Virus record (IMG/VR): IMGVR_UViG_3300006917_000054
Location: 1 to 41,790 of that record
DNA length: 41,790 nt
Strand: one strand, 5' to 3'
Source of the DNA: a virus
Under the pieces are notes generated by a model. That model saw only the letters and a list, made by a program, of their open reading frames with translations. It searched no databases and was not told the DNA's origin. This document shows positions 6,269-34,209 of this stretch, piece by piece (the stretch's first letter is position 1; every line of letters starts with the position of its first letter). A program made the position numbers and the translations under genes.

Positions 6269-7114
6269 ATGGAAGGCGGCGTAGGTGCTGGTGCGGGCGC
6301 TGGTGGTGCGGGCGCAGCTTCGGGCGGTGCCCCGGGCGGCGCGGCTCCTTCGGCCCCTGCGGGCGGATGGACCTCGGGTTTGAACCCTGAGGTCCGTGGC
6401 TGGGTTGAGACCAAAGGCTTCAAGGACGTTGGCACGGCGCTCGACAGTTATCGAAATCTCGAAAAGCTGATGGGCGTGGACAAGAACGAACTGCTGCGTC
6501 TTCCGCGCGACAAGGCCGATGCGGACGGCTGGAAGGCTGTGCGCTCGAAGCTCGGCTGGCCCGAGAAGGCCGATGGCTACGGGCTGCAGGCGCCCGAGGG
6601 CGGCGACCCTGAGTTCACGAAGCAGTACGTGGGGTGGGCCCACGAACTCGGTCTGACGATTGATCAGGCGAAGGGCCTGTTCGACAAGTACAACGAGGCC
6701 GTGAAGGCTGGCAGCCAGAAGTCGGTGGAGGCCACGGAGGCTGACTTTCTGCGGGAAGAGTCTGAGCTGAAAGCCAAGCACGGCAACGGCTACTCCAAGC
6801 TGGTGGAGAACGCCAAGCGTGTGATCAACCAGTACGGCATCAGCGAAGAGGCGCTCGGCAAGCTGGAAGCCGGGATGGGATGGAGCGGTGGGATGGAGTT
6901 CCTCGCGTCCATCGGCGCCGGGCTCGGTGAGCACCAGTTCGAAGGTGGCCAGGGCAAGGCTGGTGCGAACGGAGGCATCACCCCCGACTCGGCGAAGTCT
7001 CGCATTCAGGATCTCACGAAGGACGGGGAGTTCCTGAAGCGCGTGATGTCTGGCGACTCGGCGGCGAAACAGGAGTGGGACAACCTGCACCTGATCGCCT
7101 ACGGTGGCCGCTGA
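6269..7114 (+). CDS. Scaffolding / capsid assembly protein
   Basis: 281 aa. The N-terminal 30 residues are Gly/Ala/Pro low complexity. The core begins LNPEVRGWVETKGFKD and includes LLRLPRDKADADGWKAV and LGWPEKADGYGL, a signature common to podovirus scaffolding proteins. The rest is charged and helical, consistent with an internal scaffold that helps capsid subunits form a procapsid and then leaves. It sits one gene before the capsid gene. ATG 6269 directly follows the previous stop codon. Confidence 0.85.
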   Translation: MEGGVGAGAGAGGAGAASGGAPGGAAPSAPAGGWTSGLNPEVRGWVETKGFKDVGTALDSYRNLEKLMGVDKNELLRLPRDKADADGWKAVRSKLGWPEKADGYGLQAPEGGDPEFTKQYVGWAHELGLTIDQAKGLFDKYNEAVKAGSQKSVEATEADFLREESELKAKHGNGYSKLVENAKRVINQYGISEEALGKLEAGMGWSGGMEFLASIGAGLGEHQFEGGQGKAGANGGITPDSAKSRIQDLTKDGEFLKRVMSGDSAAKQEWDNLHLIAYGGR

Positions 7115-7133
7115 CCCAGTGGCGTTTAAGGCT

Positions 7134-7164
7134 TTGCGATTCGCGCAACGCCTCACGCTAGACT
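7134..7164 (+). promoter_or_regulatory. Possible capsid-operon promoter with TTGC-N7-GCAA palindrome
   Basis: TTGCGATTCGCGCAA (7134-7148) is a 15-bp inverted repeat. TTGCGA could be a -35; the best -10-like hexamers are GCTAGA (17-base spacer) and TAGACT (19-base spacer). If TAGACT is used, the transcript would begin near the ATG at 7175, so that ORF would be nearly leaderless. It would also transcribe the tRNA-Asn and the capsid gene. Confidence 0.4.
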
Positions 7165-7174
7165 GGCTTCACTG

Positions 7175-7417
7175 ATGAATGCCCGCGAAGAGTTCCTGGA
7201 GTGCCTCCGCTTAACGTACACACACGCTCACAGTGCGGAAGAGGCGGTAGGCCGCGCCAGGATTCTCTTCGCGGCTCTCTCAGAGGCTGAGGTCCACGGA
7301 AGCTCAACTGGGGAGCAACCGGCTGTTAACCGGGAGGATGCAGGTTCGAATCCTGTCTGTGGAGCCTCAGCCGACAAGGGGCCGGCAAAGCCGCGTCCCC
7401 AGAGTCGTCAGCGTTGA
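7175..7417 (+). CDS. Doubtful small ORF running through a tRNA gene
   Basis: 80 aa from ATG 7175. The first 40 residues (MNAREEFLECLRLTYTHAHS, then AEEAVGRARILFAALSEAEV) look like a plausible helical protein. The rest (EQPAVNREDAGSNPV) is simply the translation of the tRNA-Asn gene on the same strand. There is no clear ribosome-binding site. Either a short gene reads into the tRNA, or the frame is open by chance. Upstream of the tRNA I see no other use for 7175-7278. Confidence 0.3.
   Translation: MNAREEFLECLRLTYTHAHSAEEAVGRARILFAALSEAEVHGSSTGEQPAVNREDAGSNPVCGASADKGPAKPRPQSRQR
7279..7291. repeat. Dispersed palindrome CTCAGASTCTGAG next to tRNA-Asn
   Basis: CTCAGAGGCTGAG matches 12 of 13 positions and ends one base before the 5' end of the tRNA-Asn gene. 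Confidence 0.5.
7293..7364 (+). tRNA. tRNA-Asn (anticodon GTT)
   Basis: 72 nt cloverleaf. Acceptor TCCACGG pairs with CTGTGGA (one G-T). The D stem is GCTC/GAGC, the anticodon loop CTGTTAA carries GTT at 7325-7327, and the T stem is GCAGG/CCTGT around TTCGAAT. The discriminator is G and CCA is not encoded. The first anticodon-stem pair is mismatched (A7318 with G7334). It lies between the scaffold and capsid genes, an odd place for a single tRNA, and overlaps a small ORF on the same strand. Confidence 0.92.
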
Positions 7418-7583
7418 TCGGGAACGGGGCTGACAGCGAGAGCTGATCCGCCGATCTGACAGTCGGGAAAGTACCGACGCCCGCCCTGGCACCTGGGCAT
7501 GAGGCGGCCCCGCCCCGGGCACAGAGCCCCGGTGGACAAGCCCTTCGAAGAACGTCAAACCGTGACTCTTCTGGAGGGACCAA
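7418..7583 (+). other. Capsid gene leader, no gene seen
   Basis: GC-rich untranslated stretch between the tRNA-associated ORF and the capsid ribosome-binding site. Short complementary segments are present (for example CCGGGGC near 7516 and GCCCCGG near 7526), but there is no T-rich terminator. It may be the structured leader of the capsid mRNA or a tRNA processing region; nothing firmer can be said. Confidence 0.3.
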
Positions 7584-8483
7584 GTGTCCATCAACATTCC
7601 GTCTCATTTCGTGCAGCAGTTTTCGAGCAATATCGCTCTTCTGCTGCAGCAGCGCGGCTCGAAGCTGCGCGATGCCGTGACCGTGGGCCGCCACGTGGGC
7701 AAGCAGGCCTCCCCTGTCGATCAGATCGCCTCGATCACTGCGTCGAAGGTGACCAGCCGCTTCTCGCCGATGGGGCGTGTGGATGCGGCTGTGGACCGCC
7801 GGTGGGTCTTCCCGGTGGACTACGACCTTCCGCAGCTCCTGGACAGCTTCGACAAGCTGCGCCTGATCACCGACCCGCAGTCGGCCTACGTGCAGAACGC
7901 CATCTACGCGATGGGTCGCGCGATGGATGACGAGATCCTGGCGGCGTTCTACGCGGACGCCAAGACGGGTGAGAACGGCGGGACCACGACCGTCGCGAAC
8001 ACCACGGCCTCCACGTCCGGTGGCCAGCAGGTCGTTGCGGCGTTCGGCGCTGCGTCGGCCACGGGCCTCACGGTCGCGAAGCTCCGTGAAGCGCGCCGCG
8101 TGCTGATGGCCAACGAGGTCGATGTGGACAACGACCCGATGTACTGCATCGTCACGTCGAAGCAGCTCGACAACCTGCTGGCCGAAGCGCAGGTTACCTC
8201 GCGCGACTTCAATGACCGCCTGGTGCTGACGGACGGCAAGATCGCAAGCTTCCTCGGCATCAACTTCATCCAGTGCGAGCGCGTGCCGACCAACGGCTCC
8301 TCGCAGCACCGCTGCCCTGTGTACGTGAAGAGCGGGATGTACATGGGCATGTGGGACGACATCAAGACCTCGATCTCCCAGCGCAACGACCTGCAGGGTG
8401 AGCCGTGGCAGGTCTACGCGACCGGCACCTTCGGTGCGACCCGGATCGAAGAGAAGCGGATCGTGGAGATCGTCTGCGCCTAA
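7584..8483 (+). CDS. Major capsid protein
   Basis: 299 aa, GTG start after GGAGGGACCAA. It resembles the Phage_capsid_2 group of podovirus capsid proteins. Typical stretches are the N-terminal HFVQQFSSNIALLLQQRGSKLR, DRRWVFPVDYDLPQLLDSFD near residues 72-91, and the C-terminal QVYATGTFGATRIEEKRIVEI. It should build the icosahedral shell with an HK97-like fold. It follows the scaffold gene and precedes a small protein that could be a shell-decorating subunit, as in BPP-1. Confidence 0.9.
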   Translation: MSINIPSHFVQQFSSNIALLLQQRGSKLRDAVTVGRHVGKQASPVDQIASITASKVTSRFSPMGRVDAAVDRRWVFPVDYDLPQLLDSFDKLRLITDPQSAYVQNAIYAMGRAMDDEILAAFYADAKTGENGGTTTVANTTASTSGGQQVVAAFGAASATGLTVAKLREARRVLMANEVDVDNDPMYCIVTSKQLDNLLAEAQVTSRDFNDRLVLTDGKIASFLGINFIQCERVPTNGSSQHRCPVYVKSGMYMGMWDDIKTSISQRNDLQGEPWQVYATGTFGATRIEEKRIVEIVCA

Positions 8484-26212: not shown

Positions 26213-26319
26213 CAGTCCAACCCCCTCCCCGTCGCGATGCACATCATCACCACGGCGCCGAAGACGCCTCCCAGGTAGAACCCGACCGCGAACCATTCAG
26301 GCGAATCGAGCAGGCTCAC
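26212..26319 (-). CDS. Predicted 35-aa membrane microprotein
   Basis: A GTG start at 26319 overlaps the stop of the PrimPol-helicase gene (GTGA). The protein starts MSLLDSPEWF; residues 10-30 (FAVGFYLGGVFGAVVMMCIA) form one membrane-spanning helix. Its stop overlaps the next start. Overlap on both sides supports it as real despite its size. Function unknown. Confidence 0.5.
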   Translation of the reverse strand: MSLLDSPEWFAVGFYLGGVFGAVVMMCIATGRGLD

Positions 26320-28535
26320 TCGCTCCACTTCCTTTCGAAGCCGATGTACCTGTCCCAGTCCTTCCGGCAGGTAGCCAGATCCGGGATCTTGTACGAATTG
26401 ACCCACACGCCCCTCGAATCTTTGACCTTTCCAGAACCATTGATCTGAGGGACGCACTCCATTAATCGCCGCCCGATCTCCATGTCGTCGGGCACAGCCC
26501 GCTTGAACCTGCGGTCCTCGTGGTAGCGGCGGTACGCAGCGCGCACGCGCTCCTTCTCCAGTGCGGCCTGAGGCCACGTGGAGTCGAAGTCAGAGTGTGA
26601 GATCCAGCCTTCGTCGAGGCACTTGAACCACCACTGGTGGACCGGATCGAGGCTGAGCAGCTTCTGCTCGTACAACCCCTCGGTCTCAGGAGCCCCGTTA
26701 ACGTCGAAGCTAGACAGGTCGTAGTCGAGTAGGTAGCGCAGCAGATGGGCATAGCCGCCCTGCTCCATCCCGACCCTCATATCGTGGAAGAACCTGCGGT
26801 CCTGCTTGCGCCCGTTCCCGACGTTGAAGATCGCGTAGCGCCGCTCGTCCTGCGTGGCGGGGACGATCCAGTCCTCGTTTGAGATAATCGCAACCCGCGT
26901 GTAGTTCGCAACCTCGTAGGAGTCCTGGCCCTTGCGCTCAATGCGGCGCCGTGGCGCGGTGATCAGCCCCTTGAGCGCACCTTCTGCCCCCTTGTCCCCC
27001 GACCACGGGGCAGCCTCGTCCAGCACGAAGAAGAGGTTGTCCTCCAAGTGGCTGTTGAAGTTCCCCAGCAGGTAGCGCTTGTCGTCAGCAACCGTGTAAT
27101 GGCGGCCGAGCAGTTGGCCCACCCTGTCCACGAGCGCGTTCTTCCCGCTCCCCTTCTCGCCCCGGAACACCAAGGCCACGAGCGGCTTCTCGCTCGGACG
27201 CTGAATCAGGTGGGCGAAGTAGCCGATCAGGTACGCGAACGTGGCGTGGTTGGAGCCGCAGACATTGAGGTATGCGTGCTCCAGGAACGCGGCGACCGAC
27301 GAGTGCATCGTCACGTCCTTGGACGCGGGCTCCACGCTGAAGCCGCGCCAGAGGTTGTAGAACCGCTTGCTGACTTCCTTGCCCGGGACGAAGCAGATCC
27401 CGTCGAGCGTGCGCCGCGCCGGGTCACTCATCCAAAGCTGCGCACGCTTCTGCGCCTTCCCGCCATCGGAGATCTGGATGTCGCTGGCCATCCGCCGGTA
27501 GAAGGTCTCGACGGCCAGGAACTCCGTGCGCTCATTGCCCTCGTGGTCTGTAGACTCCCAGAGCACGAAGTCCCGGCTCCCGATGATCACGTGCGCGAAC
27601 TTGCTGTTGTAGTCGGCCATCCATCCGGTCGCAGAGTCTGAAGGCGGGGGTGTCTCGCAGACCTCCTTCCCGTCCTGCGCCTCGGGGGCATGAGGCACGA
27701 CTTGCGAAAACGCGATCTCGGGCGAAGCGCTGCCAGGGGGCAGGTCGCTGTTGTCGAACGCTGACCCGATGATCTTGCGCAGCTCGTCGTGGTCCAGCAT
27801 CGGCTGGCAGCTCCACCACTCCAGCATGATGTCGAGGATCGACTGCCGCGAGAGACCGAAGTCCTTGAGCTGCGCAGCCGCGCGGAACCCGGCGGCGTTG
27901 CGCTCTCCTGCCCCAGCGGTGTCCAAGCCGCACAGATAGTCAACGGCCCGCTGCTTCGCTTTCCTCTGATCGACGGAGTCCGTGGAGAAGACGCCGGGGG
28001 CTGTTCTCTTGTCTTCGTAGTCCGAGCGCTCCAGTCGGTCGAGGAGCCACTGTGGCGCGGGCGCGGCCGGAACGCTGAAGTCTGCGGTATACTCGCCGGC
28101 ATCGACTGTGGAGCCCGCGCCGACGATGAAGCCGCCACGGGACCGGATGTCGAGCCCAGGGCCCAGCACCTCGACGCCCTGCTTCACCGCGTAGGGTGCG
28201 GAGTACACGAGGTGCTCGCCGCCCGTGGGCGTGCGCTGCGTGAAGGTGGACGGGAACTCGAAGCCCTGCTGCCTGAGCGCAGCGATAGTGTCCGAGCCCC
28301 GCTTCCCGTCCTTGTTGTCCACGTCGATGACGATGAGAGCCCCCGCCGCGAAGTGCGAGGTGCTGATGCCCACGTTGGCGTTCGGCCACTTGGCCCACCA
28401 GGCCTGGATGACCTCGGACCTCTTGGTCGCCAGCTCGGGATACTTCTTGACCTGCGGAAGCTTGGAGCGCGGGCGCAGCGGGAAGACACAGAAGCCGTGC
28501 TCAGCGGCGAGAAGCGCGTAGTCGAGGAGGTTCAT
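26316..28535 (-). CDS. Primase-polymerase / helicase fusion
   Basis: 739 aa from ATG 28535 (TGATG overlap). Residues about 1-185 form a bifunctional PrimPol domain: VIDVDNKDG gives the metal-binding acidic pair, TPTGGEHLVYSAP and LDIRSRGGFIVGAGS the remaining active-site strands. A helical primase-C-terminal-like part follows, then a superfamily 3-like helicase domain with Walker A FRGEKGSGKNALVDRV near residue 450 and Walker B-like LFFVLDEAAPW near 495. It would prime and unwind at replication start. The split polymerase genes are immediately upstream in the operon. Confidence 0.88.
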   Translation of the reverse strand: MNLLDYALLAAEHGFCVFPLRPRSKLPQVKKYPELATKRSEVIQAWWAKWPNANVGISTSHFAAGALIVIDVDNKDGKRGSDTIAALRQQGFEFPSTFTQRTPTGGEHLVYSAPYAVKQGVEVLGPGLDIRSRGGFIVGAGSTVDAGEYTADFSVPAAPAPQWLLDRLERSDYEDKRTAPGVFSTDSVDQRKAKQRAVDYLCGLDTAGAGERNAAGFRAAAQLKDFGLSRQSILDIMLEWWSCQPMLDHDELRKIIGSAFDNSDLPPGSASPEIAFSQVVPHAPEAQDGKEVCETPPPSDSATGWMADYNSKFAHVIIGSRDFVLWESTDHEGNERTEFLAVETFYRRMASDIQISDGGKAQKRAQLWMSDPARRTLDGICFVPGKEVSKRFYNLWRGFSVEPASKDVTMHSSVAAFLEHAYLNVCGSNHATFAYLIGYFAHLIQRPSEKPLVALVFRGEKGSGKNALVDRVGQLLGRHYTVADDKRYLLGNFNSHLEDNLFFVLDEAAPWSGDKGAEGALKGLITAPRRRIERKGQDSYEVANYTRVAIISNEDWIVPATQDERRYAIFNVGNGRKQDRRFFHDMRVGMEQGGYAHLLRYLLDYDLSSFDVNGAPETEGLYEQKLLSLDPVHQWWFKCLDEGWISHSDFDSTWPQAALEKERVRAAYRRYHEDRRFKRAVPDDMEIGRRLMECVPQINGSGKVKDSRGVWVNSYKIPDLATCRKDWDRYIGFERKWSE

Positions 28536-28867
28536 CACGGCTGATCCCCACCCCACGCGCTGGGCGCGGGCCCAGATCTCTTCTTCCGTCGATCCGCGTT
28601 CTCGACCCTATGCCCCTTGCCTACCAGCTCTTGAACCATCTGCTGCTCCAGCCGCAGAGCGGTGGCCTGGCCGTCGATGCCACGAAGCACGACAGCGAAC
28701 TCACAGTCTGGGCCCAGCGCGATGACCGCCCGTCGAGCCCCGGCGGACTTGCGCGCCGTGGCCTTCAACGAATGCTGGTACTTGCGCATCTCCTCGTTCG
28801 TGGTGATCCCCACGTACCGGACTTCCCCGGTGGTCTGACTGCGCAGTACGTAAATGCTCCACAGCAT
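28535..28867 (-). CDS. GIY-YIG nuclease domain protein
   Basis: 110 aa. The N-terminus SIYVLRSQTTGEVRYVGITT gives the GIY-YIG pair as IYV and YVG, and an Arg-rich helix follows (LRLEQQMVQELV with Glu). The tail is basic. Starts and stops overlap the polymerase and PrimPol genes. It may be a free-standing homing endonuclease or a repair nuclease; its position beside the divided polymerase makes the first option attractive, but this is inference. Confidence 0.75.
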   Translation of the reverse strand: MLWSIYVLRSQTTGEVRYVGITTNEEMRKYQHSLKATARKSAGARRAVIALGPDCEFAVVLRGIDGQATALRLEQQMVQELVGKGHRVENADRRKKRSGPAPSAWGGDQP

Positions 28868-30474
28868 TACTTCCGATACCTCCGTCCCTTCCAGCCTTCG
28901 ACCGCCATCGGCAGGCCCTCAGCCCAACCTGGCAGCACGCAGACTTCGTGCTCGTATTCTTTGAGTTCGACAGATCCACTTGCAATTTCCGCAACAAGCT
29001 CGTCGTGCACCTGCAAGACGACGGGCCAGCCGCGCGCCTCAACACGAGTCAGCGAGTTGCGGAGGAGGCAAGACGACGCGGCTTGCACCACGTTCTCGGT
29101 CAGTTTGCCCCCATACGTTCTCTGCCTGGTCCACTTCTTGGTGAAGTCGTCCACGCCCATGTAGGTAAGCTGGTGCCTCGTCCTTCCCTTGAAGCTCGTG
29201 GACTCCACCTGCGGCGCGGGGTACGCGATGGTGCGGCCCGAGGGCAGTTGACACCAGAGATAGCCGTTGGCCTTCTTGTACTTAATCCGACCCCCCGCCG
29301 CAGACTCTGTGCCCCTCCCCGTGGCGGCGCGCACCGCCGCTTCCTCCAGCTCGTACCAGAGCGACACGACGCGCGGGTGACCCCGCCGCCAGGCCGCCTT
29401 GATCTCTTCGGCCTTAGCCTCTGCGACCTGGGGGTCTTCGTCCAAGCGAACACCGAAGCCCTCGGCGAACCGGAGGAAGGCCCCCGCGCCGCCGCCGTAG
29501 CCAAGTGCCAGCTCGGCGCACTTGCCGATGAAGCGCTCGAAGCTGTCCTTGCCCAGCGCGATGATCTGCTCCAGCGTTTTGCCAAAGATGATCGCCGCGT
29601 TCATCTCGTAGATCTTGCCGTGGGTCTTGAATGCTTCGATCTTCTTCAAATCGTTCGCAAGCCACGCGAGCACACGAGCTTCGATGCTCGCATAGTCGCA
29701 GACATAGAACTCGTAGCCGGGCGCAGGAACGAAGAAGCCACGGAGGCAGTCCGAGATCACCTGCAGCACGGACCCGTACTTCGCGAACGGCCAGGCGGCG
29801 ATGCTGTCGGAGAGGTTGTTCCCCTGCCCCACGAGGCCCAGCCACATCATCACCTCTTCCTGCGCCGCCGGGGTCATCTCCTTGCGGGGACGTGGGAAGT
29901 TCTGCGGCTGCGGGCCACGGCCCGCCCACCGCCCCGTCTGGCCGGCGCCGTGGAACTGGAACATCCCACGAATCCGACCGTCTGGGCAGGCCCAGTTGAT
30001 CAGGGCTTCGAGCTTGGCGGTTGAGGACTTCGCGAACTCGGCCCGGTACAGCAGCCCTTGGCGCACGCGCGGGTCGAGGTCGTCCCGCTTGAGGTACTCT
30101 TGGATCTGCATCTTGTCGAGACCGGCGATGGACTCGGAAAAACCAAGGTCGCAGAGCCAGTCTTTGAGCTGCGCGACTCGACCACAACCTGAGACAACCC
30201 CTTCAGTGAGTCGTCCCATCTCAGAGTCAAGGCGTCGTTGTTCAGCACGAACGAGATGCAATGCCGCCCGAGCTGCAGGGAGATCAACGCCGACCCCTCG
30301 GCGGTTGATTCGACCATCAAGGAGTTGGATTTGCCTTTCGGCTGGACTGAGCGCATACAGCTTCTGTTCCTTCGCGCGTTCGACGCGGATGTCTTGCTTG
30401 CAGTAGTTGTAGAGTGCTTCGTATTTCTCGGGGTAGGAGGCCTTGTCCCACCAAGTGACGCGGAGGGCGGTCAT
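28867..30474 (-). CDS. DNA polymerase I (family A), polymerase part of split enzyme
   Basis: 535 aa from ATG 30474. It begins inside the 3'-5' exonuclease domain: YNYCKQDIRVE near residues 26-36 is motif ExoIII (Tyr and Asp). Polymerase motifs follow: FVCDYASIEARVLAWL (motif A), GKCAELALGYGGGAG (motif B) and QVHDELVAE (motif C). Motifs ExoI and ExoII are absent here but present in the gene at 30796-31284. There is no 5'-3' exonuclease, as usual in phages. It should replicate the phage genome, probably together with the separate exonuclease fragment. Confidence 0.9.
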   Translation of the reverse strand: MTALRVTWWDKASYPEKYEALYNYCKQDIRVERAKEQKLYALSPAERQIQLLDGRINRRGVGVDLPAARAALHLVRAEQRRLDSEMGRLTEGVVSGCGRVAQLKDWLCDLGFSESIAGLDKMQIQEYLKRDDLDPRVRQGLLYRAEFAKSSTAKLEALINWACPDGRIRGMFQFHGAGQTGRWAGRGPQPQNFPRPRKEMTPAAQEEVMMWLGLVGQGNNLSDSIAAWPFAKYGSVLQVISDCLRGFFVPAPGYEFYVCDYASIEARVLAWLANDLKKIEAFKTHGKIYEMNAAIIFGKTLEQIIALGKDSFERFIGKCAELALGYGGGAGAFLRFAEGFGVRLDEDPQVAEAKAEEIKAAWRRGHPRVVSLWYELEEAAVRAATGRGTESAAGGRIKYKKANGYLWCQLPSGRTIAYPAPQVESTSFKGRTRHQLTYMGVDDFTKKWTRQRTYGGKLTENVVQAASSCLLRNSLTRVEARGWPVVLQVHDELVAEIASGSVELKEYEHEVCVLPGWAEGLPMAVEGWKGRRYRK

Positions 30475-30671
30475 TGCTCTCCCACCCAACGCGCGTCACA
30501 GGAGTTGCAGATGTAGACGAGCGGCTTGTCTACAGGGCTGCGGAAGACGTTGCAGCCGCACTCGCACCGAAACGCACGATCGCTGCCGGCAAAAAAGACC
30601 ATCCTGTCGGTGTCGGCGATCTTTTCTCGCTTCACCGGGAACATCTTCTTGTGACACTCAGTGCAGATCAC
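30471..30671 (-). CDS. Small zinc-ribbon protein inserted in the polymerase locus
   Basis: 66 aa, GTG start after GGGAGGGCGGGAA. Cys pairs occur in ICTECHKK, FRCECGCNVF and YICNSCDARW, enough for one or two zinc sites. Its stop overlaps the polymerase start (ATGA), and its start overlaps the previous stop (GTGA). It separates the two polymerase parts. It might bind DNA or bridge the split enzyme; unproven. Confidence 0.65.
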   Translation of the reverse strand: MICTECHKKMFPVKREKIADTDRMVFFAGSDRAFRCECGCNVFRSPVDKPLVYICNSCDARWVGEQ

Positions 30672-30796
30672 TTCCCGCCCTCCCGGCGATGGCGGATGAA
30701 GCACGCCTTGCACACGTAGATCACAGCCGCAGAGTCTGAGGGTTCCTCGACGAAGATCGGAAGCGTGCAGCGACTGCACTTAACGGGCAAGGCCAT
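30668..30796 (-). CDS. 42-aa zinc-finger-like protein inserted in the polymerase locus
   Basis: It begins MALPVKCSRCTLPIFVEE and contains a second pair in YVCKACFIRH, so CxxC-N22-CxxC could hold one zinc ion. The start overlaps the exonuclease gene stop (TGATG). A dispersed palindrome copy (30728-30740) lies within the coding sequence. Function unknown. Confidence 0.6.
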   Translation of the reverse strand: MALPVKCSRCTLPIFVEEPSDSAAVIYVCKACFIRHRREGGK

Positions 30797-31284
30797 CACG
30801 CTTCCACCGCCAGATCGGTCGATTCGACGGTCTCGCTCTTGCGCGGCTGCGAGAGCTGCAGCATAATGCGCCGCCCCGCCGCGTCCTTCTCCACGCCGAG
30901 GCCCATCGCCTCAGCGCTCTTGTCGAGACCCGCCGGCAGCGCGTGCGCGAGGCCCATCGCCTGGGTGCAGTACACCTGAGCCGGATCCAACGTGGGCCAG
31001 CCGTACTTCACGCCCACCCAGTTGCAGATCTCCAGCTCGAAGGACGCGTTCTCCGCATAGACCGCACCGCCAGAGGCAAGGTGGTTCAGGATCTCCGTAG
31101 GGATCGGCTCACCGGGCACCCAAATCTGGGGTTCGGTGTCGGGCTCGCCCTCCGTGTCGAGGGCCCACCCGGCGCAGAGGATGTCGGTGCTGGGGTGGCG
31201 TGCGTACACGTACAGCCCCACCTCCCGAAGATCCACCGCGCTCCTTGTCTCCCAGTCAAGGTGCAGTTTTCGCTGCTTGCTCAA
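30796..31284 (-). CDS. 3'-5' exonuclease N-terminal part of split DNA polymerase I
   Basis: 162 aa from TTG 31284, with AGAGGAG about ten bases upstream. It carries ExoI (HLDWETRSAVDL, with Asp and Glu) at residues 8-19 and ExoII-like VYAENASFELEI near residue 74, then the helical part MGLGVEKDAAGRRIMLQLSQPRK. In intact phage polymerases this is followed directly by WW..PE and the ExoIII motif, which here begins a separate gene. The fragment ends with a short new tail (SETVESTDLAVEA). Two zinc-ribbon genes lie between the parts. Confidence 0.85.
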   Translation of the reverse strand: MSKQRKLHLDWETRSAVDLREVGLYVYARHPSTDILCAGWALDTEGEPDTEPQIWVPGEPIPTEILNHLASGGAVYAENASFELEICNWVGVKYGWPTLDPAQVYCTQAMGLAHALPAGLDKSAEAMGLGVEKDAAGRRIMLQLSQPRKSETVESTDLAVEA

Positions 31285-31520
31285 TGTATGTAGCTCCTCT
31301 CGACTACTCGCAGGTAAACGCCCTTCCCGTTGCACTCCTCGCACTCGGTGTAGGGCTCGGCCTGATCGCTGATCGCGCACTCGTCCACGTTCTCGACAAG
31401 CCCCAGCCCATCGCAGTCCTCGCAGATACTGTGCTTCTGGAAGAAGCGCGGGAACTCGGGGGCGTAGAAACGGACAGGCTCGTCTGACTTCTTCTTTCGC
31501 CTTCCTGATCTCGCTGCCAT
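31281..31520 (-). CDS. DnaJ-like zinc-finger small protein
   Basis: 79 aa, ATG 31520. It contains ICEDCDGLGLVE and ECEECNGKGVYL, two copies of the CxxCxGxG motif of DnaJ-type zinc-binding modules, and a basic N-terminus (SGRRKKKSD). It has no J domain. It might bind RNA or protein partners. An alternative in-frame start lies at 31547. Its stop overlaps the TTG start of the exonuclease fragment. Confidence 0.65.
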   Translation of the reverse strand: MAARSGRRKKKSDEPVRFYAPEFPRFFQKHSICEDCDGLGLVENVDECAISDQAEPYTECEECNGKGVYLRVVERSYIH

Positions 31521-31548
31521 CGCGTTCGGTTGCTGCCGCGCCAGCAAC

Positions 31549-31595: not shown

Positions 31596-32180
31596 CTACT
31601 TGAACACCGAATCGGTGGACGCACCGCCGGTCGGAGCGCTGGCCACGGCGGCGAAGTCGTCTTCCGGGGCCGTGCGGCCCGTCAGCGGCTCAGCGTCGGC
31701 CACCTTGCACACGTTGTTCAGGTAGCACGTGACGCCCATCTTGCCGGCCTTCTTGTAGGTCGAGAAGACCACCGAGACCACGGCCTGGACGCCCGAGTAG
31801 ATCTTGGTCCTGTCCGTGAAGGCGGCGAACTTGCCGTTGACCACCTCGCCGACGACGGGCTTCGTGGTGCTCGTCTTCGCCTTGAGCCAGAAGCCGCCCT
31901 CGCGGTGACCCTCGGGCCAGCGGCCCTTCTTGTCCTTCTTGCACGGCTTGAGCGGAAGCGTGAACTTCTCGGGGTCTTCGTCGTGCGCCTTCTGGTAGTC
32001 CGGGTCCAGCTTGCGCGCGAGGCGGTGGATCACGTCCTTCACTTCGGTGAGGTTGGCGCCCGGCGAGAAGATCACGTCGGAGCCGAACTCCATCTTGCCG
32101 TTCATGTCATTGAGCCGAGCTTCGAACAGGTTCGGGAAGTTGAGCGTCCCGACGGGCAGGGTCACAGATTCCTTGGCCAT
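31596..32180 (-). CDS. DUF2815-family ssDNA-binding-like protein
   Basis: 194 aa from ATG 32180, preceded by GAAAGGATAATTTCA. It contains TLNFPNLFEARLN, KPCKKDKKGRWPEGHREGG and FSTYKKAGKMGVTCYLNNV, characteristic of DUF2815 proteins, which have an OB-like fold related to phage single-strand DNA-binding proteins. It likely protects single-stranded DNA in replication or recombination and is encoded beside the nuclease, the usual pairing. The C-terminus has an acidic patch (APEDDFAAV). Confidence 0.85.
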   Translation of the reverse strand: MAKESVTLPVGTLNFPNLFEARLNDMNGKMEFGSDVIFSPGANLTEVKDVIHRLARKLDPDYQKAHDEDPEKFTLPLKPCKKDKKGRWPEGHREGGFWLKAKTSTTKPVVGEVVNGKFAAFTDRTKIYSGVQAVVSVVFSTYKKAGKMGVTCYLNNVCKVADAEPLTGRTAPEDDFAAVASAPTGGASTDSVFK

Positions 32181-32193
32181 TGAAATTATCCTT

Positions 32194-33459
32194 TCAGTTA
32201 TCCGACTCCGATGAAAAGGTATTTTCACCAGAGGTCAACATCAGCTTCTCGAACTCGGAACCAGGAGCGGGCAGAGCTGCCACGGGCCGCTTGTCGCCAT
32301 CGGCCACGAGAGTCACGCCCGACGACTTGGACTCGTACAGCTCGGACTCCTTCAGCTCGCGCTTTCCCGGGGCGGTCAAGAACTTCTCAATCGCCGCCGG
32401 TGAGCGCAGAGAGCGCTCGTAGATCTCATCATCTGCCAGACCGAAATCGCTGCGCAGAGTCTGAGCAACGGCACTCTCGTCGGCAGTCCAGCGGCGCGAG
32501 GGCCGCTTCGCCACGAGCTTGTAACCAGCGGGAACGCGGCCCGCGAGCGATTCGCGGTAGGCGTGGGCCCGGAGGTTTCGGATGTAGTTCTCCACCACGG
32601 CAGCGAGCCGCAGTTCGGCCGCAAGCTTCTCGGCCGGCAGTTCAGCGGGAGGCGTGAACTGAGACTGTGAGAGGACCGCGACGGCCTTCTGGTTCTCCGG
32701 GCACTTGTGAGATGCCGGGCACCAGCGGCAGTGGCTGCCGAGCTTGTACTCGCCCTCGCCCGCGTAGGCCTGGCGGACCCGCTCCGCATACTGGGCACGA
32801 AAGCCCAGCAGCTCGGTGGGTTGCACGGCCTTGCGGCGGACGGGGCCCTCGGCGTGAAAGGCGTTCGGCTGGCAGATCACCAGCTCGATGGTCGCAGCGG
32901 GCCAGGTGTGTGCGAGAAGCGCCAGCAGTGCGTAGAATCGCAACTGGTAGTTGATCTCCCACTCCCCGGTCGCGTTGCCCGCCTCGTCCTCCACGGGCTT
33001 GAAGACCTCGACGACCACACCGGCACCGTGCTTGTAGTCGTACACCGTGAGCTTGCGGCAGTGGTGGCAGAAGGCCACCGCGTCGGGCGTGCCCCAGGCG
33101 TACTTGTGAATCGAGGGCACGTGGATCCGCTTCTCGATGTGAAGCTCGACCCGGTGGCCCTGCGCCACACAGGGCGCAAGGTCGGTTCGGACCGCGTCCA
33201 CATAGACGCGCACGGCCTCGCGCATCTCAGGGTCCACGGGGTCGTCGAGGCGCTGTTGGAACTCGCCGTTCTCCAGCCACCCTTTGGCCACGTTGTGCGC
33301 CTTGGTCCCGATCCGCGCGTCCTCGCCAGACTCTGAGGAGCAGTCGGCGGCGAGGAGCACGGACGGCGGGCACTTCATCACACGTTCGGCCTGCGAGCCC
33401 CCGATGGGGCTGTGCTCGGGGAGCACTTCGGCGGTGAGCGCCTCATTCGTAGTAGTCAT
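32194..33459 (-). CDS. DUF2800 / Cas4-like PD-(D/E)XK nuclease
   Basis: 421 aa from ATG 33459. The N-terminal GSQAERVMKCPPSVLLA and GTKAHNVAKGWL are typical. The nuclease core is WGTPDAVAFC followed by LTVYDYKHGAGVVV (the D...DxK motif) and NYQLRFYALLAL. A Cys cluster (HCRWCPASHKCPENQ) near residue 255 may hold an Fe-S cluster, as in Cas4 and AddB. It probably produces single-stranded ends for recombination with the DUF2815 partner. It contains three dispersed palindrome copies. Confidence 0.85.
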   Translation of the reverse strand: MTTTNEALTAEVLPEHSPIGGSQAERVMKCPPSVLLAADCSSESGEDARIGTKAHNVAKGWLENGEFQQRLDDPVDPEMREAVRVYVDAVRTDLAPCVAQGHRVELHIEKRIHVPSIHKYAWGTPDAVAFCHHCRKLTVYDYKHGAGVVVEVFKPVEDEAGNATGEWEINYQLRFYALLALLAHTWPAATIELVICQPNAFHAEGPVRRKAVQPTELLGFRAQYAERVRQAYAGEGEYKLGSHCRWCPASHKCPENQKAVAVLSQSQFTPPAELPAEKLAAELRLAAVVENYIRNLRAHAYRESLAGRVPAGYKLVAKRPSRRWTADESAVAQTLRSDFGLADDEIYERSLRSPAAIEKFLTAPGKRELKESELYESKSSGVTLVADGDKRPVAALPAPGSEFEKLMLTSGENTFSSESDN

Positions 33460-33841
33460 TGACCTCGACGCGCCCGTCGCGCAGCACCTTGATCTCGTAG
33501 CCGTCACCGAAGATCTCTTCCAGAACTGCCGAGTAGCCGTCGAAGCTGTTCTCCAACTCCTTCACCGCCAGGCCCAGGGGCGTCTTATCCGCCCAGCTCA
33601 CCTCGTTCTCTTCGTCGGGGTCGCCGATGAAGACTTCGGGGCCCGAGATGCGGAACGTGCAGGGCTCGCCGTCGTTGAACGAAGGAGTGTACTGGCGCCA
33701 TCGCACACAGCTCACCTGCTCGAATGCTTCGAACAGACTCTTGAACAGCTCGACTACAGACTCCTTGCCGGCCTTGGCCGCCTCCGCCGCAAGCTCCTGC
33801 TTCGCTGCGGCGAACTTTTCCGCGACTTCCTTGAGACCCAT
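33443..33841 (-). CDS. Conserved phage hypothetical protein
   Basis: 132 aa. The N-terminus is a Lys/Ala/Glu coiled-coil-like helix (FAAAKQELAAEAAKAGKESV). The middle has CVRWRQYTPSFNDGEPCTFR, a pattern I recognise in phage hypothetical proteins encoded beside DUF2800 and DUF2815 genes. It overlaps both neighbours. Possibly part of the recombination module; no activity can be assigned. Confidence 0.7.
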   Translation of the reverse strand: MGLKEVAEKFAAAKQELAAEAAKAGKESVVELFKSLFEAFEQVSCVRWRQYTPSFNDGEPCTFRISGPEVFIGDPDEENEVSWADKTPLGLAVKELENSFDGYSAVLEEIFGDGYEIKVLRDGRVEVNDYYE

Positions 33842-34209
33842 TAATCTTTCATCCTTTCGAGATCGTTCAAATTAAAGGTTCGTGTCTTCTTCGTCGGACC
33901 ACCCAGCCAGTCGTAGAACGGCATGCCGTCCAGGTAGTCCTGCACCGTGGGGATGCGGCCCATGTCGTCAATGACGTGCTGCTCGGCAACGTCGCGAACC
34001 GACACGAGCCTCCCGTCGCTGTTGGTGATGTTGATCCCGAATACCCGCTCCGTGATGAAGATCCCGAACGCAGAGTGTAGGATCGCGCGGTGACGCATAT
34101 CCGGGTGCGCCGCCTTCGAGCTGTCGATGAAGTCGTGGATGGCCTGGTAGTCTTCCGGCTTCCCGCCCCACTTCTTCACCGACACGCGCCCGTGGTCGTA
34201 GGGCTTCAA
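33841..34209 (-). CDS. DUF6915-like phage protein
   Basis: 122 aa; TTG start overlapping the 26-aa microgene stop. It has the pattern YQAIHDFIDSSKAAHPDMRH, HSAFGIFITERVFG and AEQHVIDDMGRIPTVQDYLD, matching a family of small phage proteins rich in His and Asp. The conserved His and acidic residues could form a metal site, but no activity is known to me. Confidence 0.65.
   Translation of the reverse strand: MKPYDHGRVSVKKWGGKPEDYQAIHDFIDSSKAAHPDMRHRAILHSAFGIFITERVFGINITNSDGRLVSVRDVAEQHVIDDMGRIPTVQDYLDGMPFYDWLGGPTKKTRTFNLNDLERMKD

Follow-up and report, generated by a model that had tools for sequence, protein, structure and literature searches.

The closest described counterpart of a DNA polymerase I (PolA) encoded in two parts is found in the OM43 phages MEP401 and MEP402, where PolA occupies two ORFs separated by a small one of unknown function (PMC10580990; OP830906 gp13-gp15). 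Most group I genomes conserve this split, which lacks a homing endonuclease; an intron was suspected by the authors (PMC10580990). In the T4-related Aeromonas phages 25 and 44RR, gp43 is split, with a seg endonuclease or untranslated sequence as the insert, and gp43A and gp43B of phage 25 are reported to co-purify and to be active (Petrov et al. 2010, via PMC2988022). The same source cites Friedrich et al. 2007 for nrdA of phage Aeh1, a 'genes-in-pieces' case in which the gene is split by the homing endonuclease mobE and is still functional.

The locus described here lies on an IMG/VR virus record, a metagenomic contig of 41,790 bases that was analyzed over its whole length (the window). Like MEP401/402, it carries a family-A phage polymerase over two ORFs, with a small-ORF insert and without an endonuclease. 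In contrast to MEP401/402, where one chain carries the entire exonuclease, the break in the window does not lie before motif A. The window resembles gp43A/gp43B of phages 25 and 44RR in having a replicative polymerase in two chains, whereas gp43 belongs to family B; with Aeh1 nrdA it shares an essential phage enzyme in pieces, but that enzyme is a ribonucleotide reductase split by mobE, and the window gap contains no homing endonuclease. The literature searched, which covered few subscription journals, contained no break in the exonuclease domain that distributes one active site over two chains. A split PolA is already published for the OM43 phages; the exonuclease site divided between chains is what is new.

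The split locus and the position of the break

PolA of the window is encoded by two genes rather than a single continuous gene, with approximately 320 nt between the halves. Both belong to a minus-strand replication cluster in the order DUF2800 nuclease, ssDNA-binding protein, 88-aa CxxCxGxG gene, exonuclease piece, 43-aa ORF, 66-aa ORF, polymerase piece, GIY-YIG gene and Prim-Pol. The N-terminal piece, which contains the 3'-5' exonuclease strands (30796..31284, minus strand; 162 aa, TTG start; phrog_17, 4e-12), carries ExoI (LDWET) and ExoII (NASFE). The C-terminal piece (28867..30474, minus strand; 535 aa, ATG start; PF00476, 1e-14; phrog_17, 8e-92) carries ExoIII (YCKQD), the thumb, motif A (DYASIEARV), motif B (RFIGKCAELALGYGGG) and motif C (HDE). 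Over the two chains, ExoI-III and polymerase motifs A-C were all present, and both pieces matched the phrog_17 DNA polymerase, at profile positions 669-789 for the exonuclease piece and 802-1232 for the polymerase piece. The coordinates and the motif distribution had been given correctly throughout in an earlier, sequence-only reading of this DNA. With ExoI and ExoII on one chain and ExoIII on the other, the exonuclease site is composite, and the chains must therefore meet for proofreading, a point on which that reading was also upheld.

The gap holds two zinc-ribbon ORFs only. For the zinc-ribbon-like ORF next to the exonuclease piece (30668..30796, minus strand; 43 aa from ATG; CSRC...CKAC), nothing was obtained above the Pfam cut-off, while the second ORF (30471..30671, minus strand; 66 aa, GTG start; CTEC...CECGC...CNSC) matched phrog_5768 at 5e-8. 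Directly before the exonuclease piece lies the 88-aa CxxCxGxG zinc-finger gene (31281..31547, minus strand; weak DnaJ_CXXCXGXG match), and three short Cys-rich genes were thus seen to cluster around this piece. The polymerase piece is followed, outside the gap, by the GIY-YIG gene (28535..28867, minus strand; 110 aa; Pfam PF01541, 1e-6). The neighbors typical of a phage PolA cluster were present, all on the minus strand and recognized by profile matches: the DUF2800 / PD-(D/E)XK exonuclease (32194..33453), the Enc34-type ssDNA-binding protein (31596..32177) and the Prim-Pol / DUF5906 primase-helicase (26316..28556). A DUF6915 protein (33841-34209; 1e-42) was also observed in the cluster.

From the 88-aa gene through the GIY-YIG gene, overlaps of 1-4 nt were found on the coding strand at every junction: TTGA between the 88-aa gene and the exonuclease piece, TGATG between the exonuclease piece and the 43-aa ORF, GTGA between the two gap ORFs, ATGA between the 66-aa ORF and the polymerase piece, and TAATG between the polymerase piece and the GIY-YIG gene. 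A purine-rich, Shine-Dalgarno-like stretch precedes each start in this series, and GC3 was 0.76-0.85 across all pieces of the split locus. Because the halves are separate and about 320 nt apart, with two complete ORFs in other frames between them, the split is not a sequencing frameshift; the earlier view of an organized arrangement with overlapping junctions was confirmed. True frameshifts in the PolA family (L104, L347 and Salmonella phage SE-W109) differ in appearance from the split in the window.

The nearest annotated relative, MW202898, encodes PolA as one intact 650-aa gene that shares 51% identity with the exonuclease piece and 42% with the polymerase piece. It reads ...MMQMSKPRETKSDGTIVWWESEEKL... 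through the position of the break. Compared with MW202898, the window residues ...IMLQLSQPRKSET and TWWDKASYPEKYEALYNYCKQDIRVE meet at the break, and no conserved residue is lost. The exonuclease chain extends for about 14 residues beyond PRK, and the polymerase chain begins 7 residues ahead of WW. Invariance was checked in 203 intact relatives, in which 51 columns were at least 95% invariant (P0006 numbering). The sole real deviation of the window chain pair at these columns was D585C, and the catalytic residues were all retained (exonuclease D, E; N, E; Y, D, plus motifs A-C). Apart from D585C, both comparisons agree with the earlier claim that no residues are missing. The window polymerase itself sits on a long tree branch (1.32), with some insertions. 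A second contig of its own lineage was not found in scans of viral and genome contigs; a single-protein scan of viral contigs with P0002 gave no relative, and a neighbor-gene search via the primase returned just one short contig.

An AlphaFold model of the intact homologue L213 (mean pLDDT 93.4, pTM 0.91) was used to place the break. The predicted fold is Klenow-like, with a helix at 135-144, a loop at 145-159 and the ExoIII helix at 160-183, and the break maps to the loop, just ahead of the ExoIII helix. A loop in intact enzymes had been proposed as its location beforehand, and the model bears this out. In intact relatives, the interval P147-Y169 spans 14-75 residues and is among the most length-variable intervals. 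When predicted alone, the exonuclease piece folds (mean pLDDT 86) except for residues 154-162, which are disordered; this prediction supports a break in a loop and is silent on the association of the chains.

Recurrent fission among relatives

Viral and genome contigs were scanned five times for relatives, annotated phages were added, and the resulting set was classified. Searches for intact orthologues and for other phages with the same split had been suggested by the sequence-only reading, and both kinds were found. About 265 of the approximately 280 non-redundant relatives are intact, including MW202898, and clean fissions were observed at two places: the loop broken in the window (site A) and the loop before motif A (site B). 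At site A, contigs L065 and L066 are cut in the same loop as the window and carry no insert. Their exonuclease piece ends in ...TKPRKGQKVA followed by the stop, and the next gene, with the GTG within a GTGA overlap as its start codon, reads VIDEDDDD...WWDDFE.

At site B, the split cases are L007, L008, L031, L255 and L025/L027/L028. The same gap is filled in L007 (7046-7225) and L008 (4940-5122) by homologous ORFs of 59-60 aa that are 54% identical, in L031 by a 54-aa ORF, and in L255 by a 252-aa PAPS-reductase-like gene (7047-7805; PF01507, 0.2 bits under the cut-off). For L025/L027/L028, only the C-half was found locally; on the L028 contig, about 8 kb separate the C-half from an N-half that is on the opposite strand and reaches the contig end (G002:C1:1-432, L185). 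Like the window, the site-B cases represent a PolA of the DUF2800 cluster with clean fission in a loop, short overlaps and, in several, a cargo ORF. In contrast to the window, their breaks cut the polymerase rather than the exonuclease, and their inserts are unrelated. The break in MEP401/402, a distant PolA lineage, is located directly before motif A, near site B. A 383-aa 'DNA polymerase' of Ralstonia phage Simangalove (A0A7G5BBT3) has the size of a site-B N-half, which suggests a site-B split.

Two further cases, L055 and L057, were treated as doubtful, because continuous homology or a bare overlap could equally reflect a one-base change. On the tree, the split lineages were placed amid intact sisters, and the minimum number of changes between split and intact states was 8, with the doubtful L055 and L057 counted in. 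On a quick tree with a long window branch, forcing the site-B cases into one clade was rejected (p = 5.6e-7), while a single site-A origin for the window and L065/L066 was not (p 0.54). The PolA family has been broken several times independently, at two defined loops, and tolerance of these loops is the simplest reading for the reuse of sites A and B. This recurrence, together with the OM43 report, went beyond what a reader of the sequence alone could see.

Several candidate splits were rejected. L104, L347 (with an N base) and L274, which is Salmonella phage SE-W109, appeared to be sequencing frameshifts; SE-W109 is annotated with two 'DNA polymerase I' genes, the frame apparently being broken in this way. 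L273, Streptococcus phage Javan112, apparently contains an in-frame stop; its PolA is annotated as genes of 457 aa and 186 aa, 60 nt apart, and its size matches phrog_7766. L143, which carries an in-frame insertion, was dismissed among these cases, and annotated isolates that looked double-featured turned out to be intact. An in-frame insertion of about 300 residues at the PolA TGRW motif was observed in L096, L139 and L143, and its sequence in L143 (CLTGDHEVLTPDGW...VTGNSGR) is intein-like in appearance.

Selection was estimated from the comparison of L065 with L066, in which dN/dS was 0.047 in the exonuclease piece and 0.101 in the polymerase piece. Such low values indicate strong purifying selection, and both pieces are therefore kept functional in the same-loop split. 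As no close relative of the window exists, selection on its own pieces was extrapolated from this pair, and they are likewise probably kept functional.

The gaps of split relatives are either empty or occupied by a small ORF or a PAPS-reductase-like gene, and no endonuclease gene was found in the gap of the window or of any split relative. The GIY-YIG gene had been proposed as a relic of the splitting event. The gene is real, as indicated by PF01541, but it is found downstream of the polymerase, at a distance of 1.6 kb from the break, and neither a relic nor a splitting agent is supported. Since the inserts vary between lineages or are missing, they are best read as cargo, and the zinc-ribbon genes of the window are probably cargo in the break as well. 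The zinc-ribbon proteins were also considered as conserved polymerase partners; this was not supported, as the 66-aa protein has relatives in phages of Gordonia, Escherichia and Xanthomonas and in IMG/VR contigs, unrelated phages in which no split PolA was detected alongside. In Rhizobium phage RHph_N65, a PAPS-reductase gene is located two genes ahead of an intact polymerase, an arrangement which hints that neighboring genes can enter the break.

Proposed reassembly of the two chains and alternative explanations

Repeated gene fission, with separately made chains reassembling into one enzyme as a putative complex, is considered the likely explanation. The break in the PolA gene would have arisen in the surface loop that leads from the final helix of the exonuclease core to the ExoIII helix. 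Each chain would be translated separately but in a coupled manner, via overlapping stop and start codons, and both would fold together into one Klenow-type enzyme. The proofreading site would be completed in trans, with D10/E12 and N79/E83 on one chain and Y24/D28 of ExoIII on the other, and the zinc-ribbon genes would be tolerated in the break as cargo. The two chains very probably reassemble, because the pieces measured in L065/L066 are under strong selection; for the window phage, association and activity are putative. The gp43A/gp43B pair of phage 25 offers a precedent.

If proofreading had instead been lost, the polymerase chain would be an exonuclease-deficient enzyme acting on its own, and decay of the exonuclease piece would be under way. 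An exonuclease-deficient phage PolA (divPolA1) is on record (PMC11348598), and the entire polymerase domain sits on the ExoIII-bearing chain alone. However, catalytic and invariant residues persist in the exonuclease piece, its composition is that of a coding gene and a ribosome-binding-like site precedes it, the polymerase chain retains the ExoIII helix, and the equivalent exonuclease piece in L065/L066 shows the lower of the two dN/dS values (0.047), which makes such a loss unlikely. A similarly doubtful explanation makes the zinc-ribbon proteins functional subunits, with a role in stapling the two polymerase chains together or in regulating them. Their ORFs lie exactly in the gap and are translationally coupled, with a third zinc-finger gene ahead of the exonuclease piece; on the other hand, relatives of the 66-aa protein occur where no split PolA was detected alongside, the same-loop split of L065/L066 has no insert, and site-B splits have unrelated ones. 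In a related and equally tentative proposal, fission inside the exonuclease would place proofreading on a separable, titratable subunit, and the balance between synthesis and excision during infection would depend on how much of the small chain is present, perhaps with the zinc ribbons stapling or regulating the chains.

Phage polymerases can contain introns and inteins, and the halves could be reunited before or in the course of translation, or at the protein level by splicing, the candidates being a group I/II intron, translational bypass and a split intein. The intein-like insertion in L143, with insertions of similar size at the same position in L096 and L139, is in favor of this. Nevertheless, Rfam gave no intron match in the window even at E 5, apart from one irrelevant sub-threshold match; the gap consists of two complete ORFs with their own starts; and intein halves flanking the break were not seen in the sequence, the roughly 14 residues after PRK being too few for an intein half. 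Nothing is present to splice out in L065/L066, L057 and L055, and rejoining is regarded as very improbable. An assembly or sequencing artefact is just as hard to credit. The window is a single metagenomic contig, and a near relative with the same arrangement was not found, but all junctions show clean overlaps of 1-4 nt, GC3 is uniform, an independent same-loop split occurs in two other contigs (L065/L066), and genuine frameshift artefacts in the family look unlike the split in the window. Fission followed by reassembly of the chains is preferred over these alternatives.

Implications for the PolA family

Natural, selected split sites are available for the engineering of split family-A polymerases, and the locus provides a direct test case for the reassembly of broken-enzyme chains. 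Caution is also needed, as split PolA is missed or miscounted by gene callers and by virus surveys based on PolA. For the family itself, the findings mean that a cut can pass through the proofreading active site of a compact replicative polymerase, and that two defined loops of PolA are broken repeatedly, with unrelated genes slipping in.
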